Source of the DNA: Pseudoalteromonas distincta
GTDB lineage: Bacteria; Pseudomonadota; Gammaproteobacteria; Enterobacterales; Alteromonadaceae
Direction of reading: 5' to 3'
Assembly: GCF_000814675.1 (NCBI RefSeq)
Contig: NZ_JWIG01000006.1
Location: 1-64,000 of the forward strand
Length of the DNA stretch: 64,000 nucleotides
Both the position numbers and the translations under genes were made by a program. Positions 12,659 to 60,318 of this stretch are shown here, piece after piece. Each line of letters begins with the position of its first letter. The stretch's first letter is position 1. A model generated the notes under the pieces. The model did not search any database. It was not told the DNA's origin and saw only the letters and a list, made by a program, of their open reading frames with translations.

Positions 12659-13845
12659 TTAACTCAGCTCTTTTATCGCTCTGCTTATTCCATCTAAACT
12701 CAGCGCATACATGCGGTTGTTCATTAACTCTTTTATAAAGCCAATTGATTGATAGTACGGCCAGTGTTCAACGGGTTGTGGGTTGAGCCAGGCGACTTTA
12801 TCAAAGTGGTTTGTTATACGTTGCAACCATGCACTGCCGGGCTCTTCGTTGTAATGTTCTACCGAGCCGCCAGGGTAGGCTATTTCATAAGGGCTCATAG
12901 TGGCATCGCCAACAAATATCACTTTATAGTCGCTGGTGAACTTGTTTATGAGCGTCATGGTGTCAATCACGTTTGAATGGCGGCGTGCGTTGTCTTGCCA
13001 AACGTGCTCGTATAAACAGTTATGAAAGTAGTAAAACTCTAGGTGTTTAAATTCGCTGTGGGCTGCGCTAAATAATTCTTCGCAGGTGTGGATGTAGTCA
13101 TCCATTGAGCCGCCAATATCAAATAGCATCAATACTTTTACTGCATTGTGGCGTTCGGGTGCCATTTTTACATCAAGCATGCCGCCTTGTTTTGCAGTAG
13201 CGCGAATAGTCTCGTTTAAATCAAGCGTGTCGCTTGCGCCAGTGCGGGCAAACTTACGTAACTTTTTAAGGGCGAGTTTAACTGTGCGCGAACTAATTTC
13301 TCTGTCGGTGTCGAGGTTTTTGTATTCTCGTTTATCCCACACTTTTACTGCTTGGCGGTTACGATTGCCGTCTTGCCCTATACGCACACCTTCTGGGTTA
13401 TAGCCGTATGCACCAAAAGGTGATGTGCCGCCAGTACCTACCCATTTATTACCGCCAGCGTGGCGTTTTTGTTGCTCTTCTAAACGCTCTTTTAGGGTTT
13501 TCATAAGCTCATCGAGCCCGCCCATAGCTTTAAGTTGGGCTTTTTCTTCATCGCTTAGGTTTTTTCAAACTCTTTGCGTAGCCAATCTTCAGGTAAGTTG
13601 TGCTGTTGCTTTAAGCTCTCGAGCAAATCAAGGTCGGCAATACCGCTAAAGTAGTCGCTAAAGGCTTTGTCGAATCGATCAAAGTGCGTTTCATCTTTTA
13701 CCATGATGGTGCGTGCTAGATGGTAAAAGGCGTCTACGTCGGCAAATATAACGCCTTTTTTTAAGGCGTTAATTAAATCGAGTAGTTCTCGAAGGCTCAC
13801 CGGTAAACGGTATTCACGTAATTTGAAGAAAAATGCAATCAACAT
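12659..13845 (-). pseudogene. VWA-domain (CoxE-like) protein, split by a frameshift
   Basis: Two reading frames together cover one protein of the CoxE-like VWA family that partners MoxR ATPases. The first (13845-13555, 96 residues, MLIAFFFKLREYRLPVSLREL...) ends EFEKT-stop; the second (from 12659 up to about 13560) continues LSDEEKAQLKAMGGLDEL and contains the VWA domain with the MIDAS variant DIGGS. They join at a run of six A (minus strand, 13565-13560): one more A would restore a continuous protein of about 395 residues. The internal ATG at 13525 has no clear ribosome binding site. Causes may be a real mutation, a sequencing error in the homopolymer, or slippage. Confidence 0.85.
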
Positions 13846-13848
13846 ATA

Positions 13849-14113
13849 AGGGCCTGTTTATCTTTCGAGGTTAAATTTGCAGCAGTGTGTTTGGTATTTA
13901 GGTAAGGCAGAGCCTATGTAGTGTGGTTATTCCCCATAAATAGGCTATAACACAGCATAAATACCAAACACGCGCTGCCTGAAGGTTCGTCCTAGGGACG
14001 ATTAACTCTTTGTTGCTCGGCTTTTACTTAGCCCACTAGCTTACAAACCTCGCGCCACGATTAAATCGTCCCTAGTTAGAACAAATTTTAATCCTGAAAG
14101 GTCAACAGGCCCT
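13849..14113. repeat. 265-bp fold-back (MITE-like) element between moxR and VWA genes
   Basis: The ends are a perfect 10-bp terminal inverted repeat AGGGCCTGTT / AACAGGCCCT (13849-13858, 14104-14113), extended imperfectly to about 30 bp. Inside are two further stems: GTGTTTGGTATTTA / TAAATACCAAACAC (13887-13900, 13958-13971, perfect 14 bp) enclosing AGCCTAT / ATAGGCT, and CTAGGGACGATT / AATCGTCCCTAG (13992-14003, 14064-14075, perfect 12 bp). It has no coding capacity. A diverged second copy of its right half lies at about 60119-60235. No clear target duplication is seen. The last two bases (CT) form part of the moxR stop codon. Confidence 0.85.
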
Positions 14114-14957
14114 AGCGGCTCATAAACGCGAGCTTTTCGATTAGGCTTATGTCTTGCTCATTTTTAAGTAATGCGCCAAACATTGGCATTAATCCGCCTT
14201 TTTTAGCTTTGTCGTGCAGTGTTTTAGCGTCTATGTCTTCAGCCATTAAAAGCTTTAACCAATCGAGTAATTCGCTGGTGGAGGGCTTCTTTTTAAGGCC
14301 ATTGGCTTCACGTAAGTTAAAAAACACCTCAAGTGCTTGGCGTACTAAATCCTGTTTAACGTTAGGGTAGTGCACGTCAATAATCTGCTGCATTTCATCG
14401 CTGCTAGGAAAATCAATATAATGAAAAAAGCAGCGGCGTAAAAATGCGTCCGGCAATTCTTTTTCGTTATTTGATGTGATGATCACAATAGGGCGCTCTT
14501 TTGCGACAATGCGCTCGTTAGTCTCATAAACATGAAACTCCATTTTATCAAGCTCAAGTAGTAAGTCGTTTGGGAACTCTATGTCGGCTTTGTCTATTTC
14601 ATCAATCAAAAGCACTGGGCGTTTACCGTTGAGCTCTGCATATGTAAATGCCTGCCAAAGCTTACCTTTAACGATGTAGTTACTAATGTTGTGTACGCGC
14701 TCGTCACCTAGTTGGCTGTCGCGCAGGCGCGAAACCGCGTCGTACTCGTATAAGCCTTGCTGCGCTTTAGTAGTCGATTTTATATGCCACTGAATAAGCG
14801 TAGTATCTAAGCTTTTAGCCAACTCCTCAGCCAGCATGGTTTTACCTGTGCCAGGTTCGCCTTTAATTAAAAGTGGTTTTTCGAGCATAATGGCAGCATT
14901 TACAGCTTGTTTAAGCGCGCTACTCGCTATGTAATTGTCAGTTGAATTAAATTGCAC
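14112..14957 (-). CDS. MoxR-type AAA+ ATPase
   Basis: A 281-residue AAA+ ATPase of the MoxR/AAA_5 group, which act as chaperones for VWA-domain partners. Walker A is GEPGTGKT (33-40), Walker B LLIDEID (116-122), sensor-1 region IVIITSNNEKELPDAFLRRC with the arginine finger pair. The start is GTG at 14957 (MQFNSTDNY). The TAG stop uses bases of the downstream fold-back element, so the original C terminus may have been altered by its insertion. The VWA partner follows on the same strand. Confidence 0.92.
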   Translation of the reverse strand: MQFNSTDNYIASSALKQAVNAAIMLEKPLLIKGEPGTGKTMLAEELAKSLDTTLIQWHIKSTTKAQQGLYEYDAVSRLRDSQLGDERVHNISNYIVKGKLWQAFTYAELNGKRPVLLIDEIDKADIEFPNDLLLELDKMEFHVYETNERIVAKERPIVIITSNNEKELPDAFLRRCFFHYIDFPSSDEMQQIIDVHYPNVKQDLVRQALEVFFNLREANGLKKKPSTSELLDWLKLLMAEDIDAKTLHDKAKKGGLMPMFGALLKNEQDISLIEKLAFMSR

Positions 14958-60011: not shown

Positions 60012-60318
60012 TTATCTACCTTGTTGATCTAACTGCGTCCGTTATGAACGTGATTTTTATTTCACATAAGTAGTTAGATAGTATGGATTAAATAGATCAA
60101 TAGCAAGACTGATATTGTAACCCAGTACGGTAACGCAGGAGTAGTTATCGAGTCCACTAGGTTACAAGCCTCACGCTGTGATTAAATTGCTCCTAGATAG
60201 AACGAATTTTAATCCGCAAAGGTCATCAAGCCCTAAAATAAGGTTAAAAAATTTGCATTGTTAAGGCGCTTTGTTTATTTTGAGCACTTATTTATTTTAA
60301 AGGTAATCCGCAAACCGA
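60012..60318. repeat. Intergenic region with diverged copy of the fold-back element
   Basis: Bases 60119-60235 align to 13990-14113 (right half of the 265-bp element), sharing ATTTTAATCC, GAACGAATTTTAAT-like and AAGGTCA-CAAG-CCCT blocks. The matched stem is AGGAG (60137-60141) against CTCCT (60190-60194). The left half and the left terminal repeat are missing or too diverged. The rest of the 307 bp shows nothing I can name. Confidence 0.75.

Follow-up and report, generated by a model that had tools for sequence, protein, structure and literature searches.

We analysed a 64,000-nt stretch of Pseudoalteromonas distincta DNA (contig NZ_JWIG01000006.1; hereafter the window), in which a short noncoding element lies between two genes read from the minus strand. 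The upstream ORF presumably encodes an AAA-type, MoxR-like ATPase, and we take the downstream gene to be of the VWA type. The element, its parts, its neighbours and a second copy in the window are as follows.

13849..14113, no strand assigned: whole twin-hairpin MITE, 265 bp, delimited from its sequence and from empty sites in relatives
13850 (GGG) to 14112 (CCC): borders of the element, with AA at 13848-13849 on the left, where TA is expected, and TA at 14113-14114 on the right
13849..13875, plus strand: left terminal and subterminal repeat, AGGGCCTGTTTATCTTTCGAGG..., an end of the IS5-family type
13878..13979, plus strand (sense): arm 1, an RNA hairpin motif matched by covariance models R1, R2 and R3
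13976..13989, no strand assigned: symmetry centre with a mini-hairpin CCC-NNN-GGG, weak in the window copy (GCCTGAAGGTTC)
13984..14083, minus strand (sense): arm 2, the same RNA hairpin motif inverted, with R3 and R2 matches
14079..14113, plus strand: right terminal and subterminal repeat
14112..14957, minus strand: ATPase ORF that precedes the element and whose stop codon TAG is completed by the element's end
12659..13845, minus strand: VWA-type gene downstream of the element, co-directional with the ATPase ORF and present as two ORFs in the window
60116..60237, plus strand: left-truncated second copy, consisting of part of an optional insert, a remnant of arm 2 and the right end

A preliminary description of this DNA had noted a 10-bp perfect terminal repeat within 13849-14113, perfect stems of 14 and 12 bp, and no ORF. 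The repeat and both stems (GTGTTTGGTATTTA/TAAATACCAAACAC and CTAGGGACGATT/AATCGTCCCTAG, respectively) are present as described, and no ORF reaching 60 aa lies within the element. In near relatives (read from L105, L107, L108 and L109), the ATPase stop codon and the start of the downstream gene are one base apart, indicating that the window element inserted between two tightly linked genes. Since these genes are co-directional, read-through from the ATPase gene would include the element, and arm 2 is the first motif that it would reach at this site. No promoter or terminator was called inside the element. A scan of the window against Rfam returned no family at the gathering score, and among five related loci searched at E<=1 the cobalamin riboswitch alone reached its score, at a position outside the element; the other Rfam matches in those five loci were sub-threshold and also outside it. 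The insertion itself supplied one base of the new ATPase stop codon (14112-14114), such that the protein ends in MSR* in the window and MSRR* in near relatives. The VWA-type gene is split at 13540-13575, where the relative L108 reads TTAGGTGTTTTTC and the window TTAGGTTTTTTC. The longer open frame was found in 8 of 8 relatives checked (397 vs 301 codons), and the split gene in the window is either a pseudogene or a sequencing error.

The element belongs to a large family. A BLAST search of the own genome with the element gave 44 matches at 40 places, and the second window copy as query added 11, for at least 51 places including truncated copies; 40 candidates were scored in each search, and more copies may exist. 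The near-full-length copies number 45: 26 of about 265 bp, seven with the first of two insert modules only, four with the second only, seven with both and one with a deletion. The search for further copies in Pseudoalteromonas that the preliminary description had proposed produced matches in 44 of 60 same-genus genomes (about 12 candidates scored per genome). Across the order, with a diverged copy as query and two candidates scored per genome, matches were obtained in 80 of 295 sampled genomes and 25 of 99 genera. The named records among the matches listed include Shewanella, Vibrio, Enterovibrio, Grimontia, Psychromonas, Alishewanella, Rheinheimera, Idiomarina, Thalassotalea and others. The typical length is 264-267 bp; among 96 copies taken from named loci (255-285 bp), 76 fall in this range and 20 measure 278-280 bp. 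Blastn searches of E. coli genomes with one copy and of phages with two were negative, as was a search of viral contigs with one exact pattern.

Most aligned copies read (C/T)TA-GGG...CCC-TA(G/A). None of the 18 same-genus relatives examined (L105-L121 and L123) carries an insertion at the window site, and four of them are 91-95% identical in the flank; the window copy carries AA on its left, and its match to the empty site is imperfect. For 16 further insertions, out of 27 with intact ends and TA on both sides, the joined flanks were searched in three relatives. A match across the junction was obtained in at least one of the three for 14 of them (for L012 at 70% identity only), L016 was seen solely in filled form, and for L018 none of the three relatives gave a junction-spanning match. 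Six of the 16 were filled in one of the three relatives (L012, L016, L017, L019, L020 and L026). TA was present at 18 of 21 aligned junctions, 11 of them gap-free and seven with nearby gaps (inside the TA itself in two), and absent from the other three. The flank of L005 reads as the end of a single-hairpin family member (see below) and matches many places in relatives, which makes this a nested insertion.

Gene directions around the insertions were taken, independently of annotation, from whichever open frame was longest in a flank of at most 900 bp; the count omits any copy with one side undecided, and 26 of the 96 named copies were dropped from the orientation count for a flank under 600 bp. 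Insertions between convergent genes outnumbered those between divergent genes (50:24). The orientation of the element relative to tandem genes was 19:6 in the own genome, a signal that was not upheld in the enlarged set (55:39, p 0.12), so that there is no consistent orientation across all sets.

A candidate source of mobility was found in Pseudoalteromonas genome G032, where an 882-bp IS (L079:1767-2648) directly adjoins one copy. Its product is a 252-aa IS5-family transposase (NF033580, E 8.4e-77). The left end of this IS is identical at 20 of 21 positions to the family left-end sequence AGGGCCTGTTGATCTTTCAAG, and its right end agrees with the MITE consensus GAACAAAATTTAACCAGCAAAGATCAACAGGCCCT at 28 of 35 positions, compared with at most 18 of 35 elsewhere inside the IS. 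The IS thus resembles the window element in terminal and subterminal sequence and in its TA flanks, and differs from it in encoding a transposase and in lacking the hairpin motif. An 880-bp IS in G021 shares 24 of 35 positions with the right-end consensus. Its ends are unequal, differing at two positions after GGG that nearly always match between the two ends of MITE copies. At E 1e-40, 6 of the 60 same-genus genomes contain related transposases. The own genome had no close IS relative at that threshold, and a strict end-pattern search there gave no IS-sized end pair. With respect to the hairpin, the IS locus L301 had no match at E 0.001, and L299 matched solely in the neighbouring MITE. In contigs of G031 (L300, L305, L310 and L314-L328) an IS5-family transposase with these ends was matched 40 times, in many cases at the end of a contig, suggesting a recent burst that broke the assembly.

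These observations identify the window element as a MITE: it is short, has no transposase ORF, carries terminal inverted repeats that match those of an autonomous element, exists in many copies, and belongs to a family whose insertions mostly show a target-site duplication and have empty sites in relatives. The mobility suggested by the preliminary description is therefore well supported by the empty sites with TA duplication, the copy number and the IS with matching ends.

The interior of the element consists of two inverted (head-to-head) copies of one hairpin of about 100 nt. This relationship goes beyond the preliminary description, as does the occurrence of the same motif in other elements. 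We built covariance models from 30 arm-1 sequences (R1), from 24 arm-2 sequences (R2), and jointly from 27 arm-1 and 17 arm-2 sequences (R3). Searched with R1, 13 of 19 sources yielded arm 2 on the opposite strand, with scores of 37-56 bits compared with at most 31 bits for the model's own antisense; in the other six, the window included, arm 2 was missed. With R2, arm 1 was recovered from each of the 19 sources (24-54 bits), although the weakest of these scores are not decisive because the antisense control reached 37 bits. In the window, arm 1 scored 111.7 bits with R1 and 43.5 bits (E 8.2e-9) with R2, a model made from arm 2 only. With R3, arm 1, which is an R3 training sequence, scored 102.6 bits (E 6.5e-20), and arm 2, which is outside the training set, scored 60.2 bits (E 1.1e-10); arm 2 scored 77.3 bits with R2. 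In the R3 alignment (A3), 94.6% of cells are paired, compared with 67.2% for shuffles; 28 of 33 pairs show double changes, and none of 500 shuffles reached the observed values.

The window element folds at -108.3 kcal/mol on the plus strand (z = -9.9) and at -105.7 kcal/mol on the minus strand (z = -8.3), and on neither strand was any of 200 shuffles as good. Our main alignment comprised 174 copies (26 from the own genome, 26 from the same genus, 26 from the order and 96 named), with insert-bearing copies and fragments excluded. It folds as an outer stem, two arms and a mini-hairpin, with 97 predicted pairs; the central CCCN(3-4)GGG is present in 143 of the 174 copies. By tree parsimony, a Watson-Crick pair was replaced by a different one through double change 338 times, compared with 17-25 when the partners were slid by one or two columns. 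The shuffles used in the covariation analysis leave relatedness in place. Covariation across the family is thus well supported, and in this respect the compensatory change and selection on structure proposed in the preliminary description hold. The particular case it cited does not. It had located a recurrence of the right half at 60119-60235, which we place at about 60116-60237, and had read there a replaced lower stem that still pairs in part (AGGAG against CTCCT). In that copy the left half is lost, CTCCT represents the 3' half of a stem that lacks its 5' partner, and AGGAG lies within the second optional module of about 48 bp, which invalidates the example.

Wobble changes were counted by tree parsimony at pairs with at least 70% Watson-Crick cells; a first count, on one alifold structure, was dominated by constitutive G-U pairs and was abandoned. 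On the plus strand, changes to G-U and to A-C numbered 34:35 in the terminal stem, 88:47 in arm 1 (p 5e-4) and 37:104 in arm 2 (p 1.5e-8), p-values that are indicative only because tree and alignment come from the same sequences. The polarity was unchanged with structures predicted from either strand. Since an A-C pair on one strand is a G-U pair on the other, arm 1 behaves as a plus-strand RNA, arm 2 as a minus-strand RNA, and the ends as DNA. The consensus energies lean the same way (-66.0 on the plus vs -58.5 on the minus strand for arm 1; -69.8 on the minus vs -66.2 on the plus strand for arm 2). The arm 2 pairs 166-206 and 180-191, constitutively G-U on the plus strand, are a misfit to the minus-strand reading. 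It thus looks as if selection acts on the arms as RNA, in opposite directions, and on the ends as DNA, a conclusion with statistical support that carries the caveat, taken up below, that mutation bias may explain part of the signal.

We consider it probable that the element is a non-autonomous transposon of the IS5-family type (a MITE) that carries as cargo a conserved RNA hairpin of about 100 nt, present as an inverted pair. A rather unlikely alternative is that the element is a fold-back of DNA alone and has no role as RNA, its pairing being kept for cruciform or single-stranded hairpin extrusion, or by template switching between the arms, and its polarity arising from strand-biased mutation. 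Such a model accommodates the terminal stem, where pairs change together and show no wobble polarity, and also the inserts, which occur in 18 of the 45 near-complete own copies and leave the outer ends paired in all 18 according to the alignment. The substitution spectrum lends it further weight. At unpaired positions, C>T exceeds G>A in arm 1 (48.9 vs 31.8 per thousand) and G>A exceeds C>T in arm 2 (61.7 vs 41.9 per thousand), which is the direction of the GC-derived polarity in both arms (62:36 and 26:56, respectively), so mutation bias could give part of the signal. AT-derived changes numbered 24:11 in arm 1 and 10:44 in arm 2. Only those of arm 2 run clearly against the spectrum at unpaired positions, where A>G exceeds T>C by 67.1 to 18.7 per thousand, and they speak against a DNA-only model. 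The same is true of the opposite polarity of two arms that lie in opposite orientation, of the IS loci examined, which have no hairpin of their own, and of the unequal IS ends in G021. Certain internal-loop positions are, in addition, invariant between genera. Unpaired columns change more on average than paired ones (6.96 vs 4.26 changes; near-invariant in 15 of 70 unpaired vs 64 of 196 paired), so that loop conservation is limited to particular positions.

The hairpin is also present in at least two other MITE families with ends unrelated to those of the window element. With R3, at least 136 hits at E 0.01 were obtained in the own genome (150 of 2118 candidates scored). Forty hits outside known copies were examined, with about a dozen weaker ones left out; they comprise 36 single-hairpin elements, three decayed twin elements and one of a third kind. 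The single-hairpin elements (L333-L368, 36 places in the own genome) constitute a second family of MITEs; they measure about 185 bp, and their ends read TATACCAATT...ATTGGTATA or closely resemble this. Their hairpin shows polarity in the same sense (19:7, p 0.03; ends 12:6, p 0.24), and they were counted at 7:9 relative to tandem genes and at 11:2 for convergent vs divergent neighbours. No mobiliser of this family was found among the loci examined. The third family (L332:297-562 and L427-L437, about 263 bp, ends TATACCCAAACCACCTC) again carries an inverted hairpin pair. The own genome holds a single match, the twin element L332, whose ends are TATACCCAAACTACCCC, and relatives occur in 31 of 60 same-genus genomes. 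At 12 loci of this family R3 found the first arm in all 12 and the inverted second arm in 11; CCCNNNGGG lies between the arms in 11, and CCCN(3-4)GGG is present at the centre of 11 of the 12. Order-wide, R3 hits were obtained in 63 of 148 genomes and 26 of 66 genera. The new covariance model describes an RNA that matches no Rfam family in the scanned sequences and that recurs in Pseudoalteromonas, Shewanella, Vibrio and relatives. We propose, more tentatively and as a possibility that we do not yet favour, that an exchangeable RNA hairpin cassette is the unit under selection, that at least three MITE chassis, whose ends are unrelated, have acquired it across the marine gammaproteobacteria, and that its inverted duplication makes it work in either insertion orientation.

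On the transposon reading, an IS5-family transposase acting in trans would move the element as DNA, and the hairpins may act in cis within read-through transcripts. Transcription from either side would meet one sense copy first, arm 1 from the left and arm 2 from the right. The RNA would most likely act on the read-through mRNA, where the hairpins could shape processing or stability of the neighbouring message, as the available part of one report describes for ERIC in Yersinia (PMC2229807). A quite improbable alternative makes the hairpin a host-domesticated or trans-acting small RNA, its copies being kept because the RNA serves the host and its mobility being a relic. The occurrence of the element across a quarter of the sampled genera (25 of 99) and the recurrence of one motif in three carriers would fit such a role. 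The tested copies are, however, mostly lineage-specific, given the window site empty in all 18 relatives examined and 14 of 16 others uninterrupted in at least one of three relatives (6 of 16 filled in one), and the element contains no called promoter. That the whole 265 nt form one cloverleaf RNA, as a view of nested stems implies and as the strong whole-element folds and the folded outline of the alignment might suggest, is hardly tenable, given the outer stem without wobble polarity, arms that prefer opposite strands, and carriers with a single hairpin. Of the preliminary description's alternatives of a mobile fold-back repeat, a structured RNA, or both, the outline stands and "both" fits best; a single fold-back RNA spanning the element is what falls away, since the terminal stem lacks wobble polarity and the arms show opposite polarity, so that the whole is probably not one such RNA.

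ERIC is a 127-bp unit with TATACCC ends, and such ends were also seen in several of the ERIC loci that we examined. The family of the window element differs from this unit in its ends (AGGGNNTG) and typical length, and the window element in its IS5-type ends and two inverted hairpins; the ends of the third carrier start TATACCC, as in several of the ERIC loci. The architecture and two short loops (AAGGC/AACGCA) look alike in ERIC and in the hairpin motif, in the case of the loops as a visual resemblance only. R3 gave no hit at E<=10 in seven enterobacterial ERIC loci, a result that lends no support to an identity with ERIC. A scan of the named 8-kb loci for TATACC/GGTATA pairs gave nothing relevant. 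Three MITE types were reportedly described in Shewanella (MR-1) by Romine et al. in 2008. For bacterial MITEs such as ERIC, RNA-like hairpins are known, and it has been hard to separate the hairpin from the DNA ends as the part that is kept. Here variation in the ends is DNA-like and that in the two arms is RNA-like with opposite strand sense, which makes a separation possible within one element, and the same hairpin on other ends, together with an IS5-type partner, renders the question testable by moving hairpin and ends independently.

According to the available parts of two reports (PMC2759123, PMC2229807), ERIC has TA ends and acts in mRNA in an orientation-dependent manner, and ERIC/IRU elements share with the window element a short, noncoding, intergenic nature, TA ends with TA duplication and a long hairpin. 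The effect of ERIC RNA on neighbouring mRNA was reported in Yersinia (PMC2229807), and ERIC families are described from E. coli, Yersinia and V. cholerae in the accessible text of PMC2267715. Compared by description, the Correia/NEMIS, RUP and YPAL MITEs are alike in size class, in stable hairpins and, for most, in TA termini; within the accessible portion of PMC2229807 none of them is described as an inverted pair of one RNA motif common to several carriers. The available part of a MITE review (PMC10969869) names no such element, nor do the titles and abstract openings of the literature searched, and an earlier name is possible.

The two optional insert modules, of about 48 bp each, occupy fixed places in arm 2 and are similar to each other, with loops CATGGATG and GCAGGA. 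They are common to copies with different ends (L026-L030, L033, L035-L040, L049, L051, L052, L054, L065, L071). The GGA in the loops of the insert hairpins (UACAUGGAUGUA, GCAGGA) resembles what we take to be CsrA sites, and all 23 hits of a tight GGA-loop pattern in the own genome fell, by position, within family copies. We nevertheless set a CsrA sponge aside, because the inserts sit in arm 2, which prefers the opposite strand, and their GGA would be absent from the sense RNA. The CTCTTTGTTG loop of arm 2, presumably a boxA-like motif, was likewise set aside, as its strand is the wrong one and the motif is absent from the homologous position of arm 1.

Several copies depart from the standard form. 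Two deletion derivatives, from Vibrio harveyi (L223:7183-7371, 189 bp) and Enterovibrio (L190:5655-5837, 183 bp), have intact ends and one hairpin by R3, and end positions 65 bp apart in G057 hint at a smaller derivative. At L266:2519-3061 two MITEs abut with one TA in common, and at L079:1501-2648 a MITE and the IS abut in the same manner.
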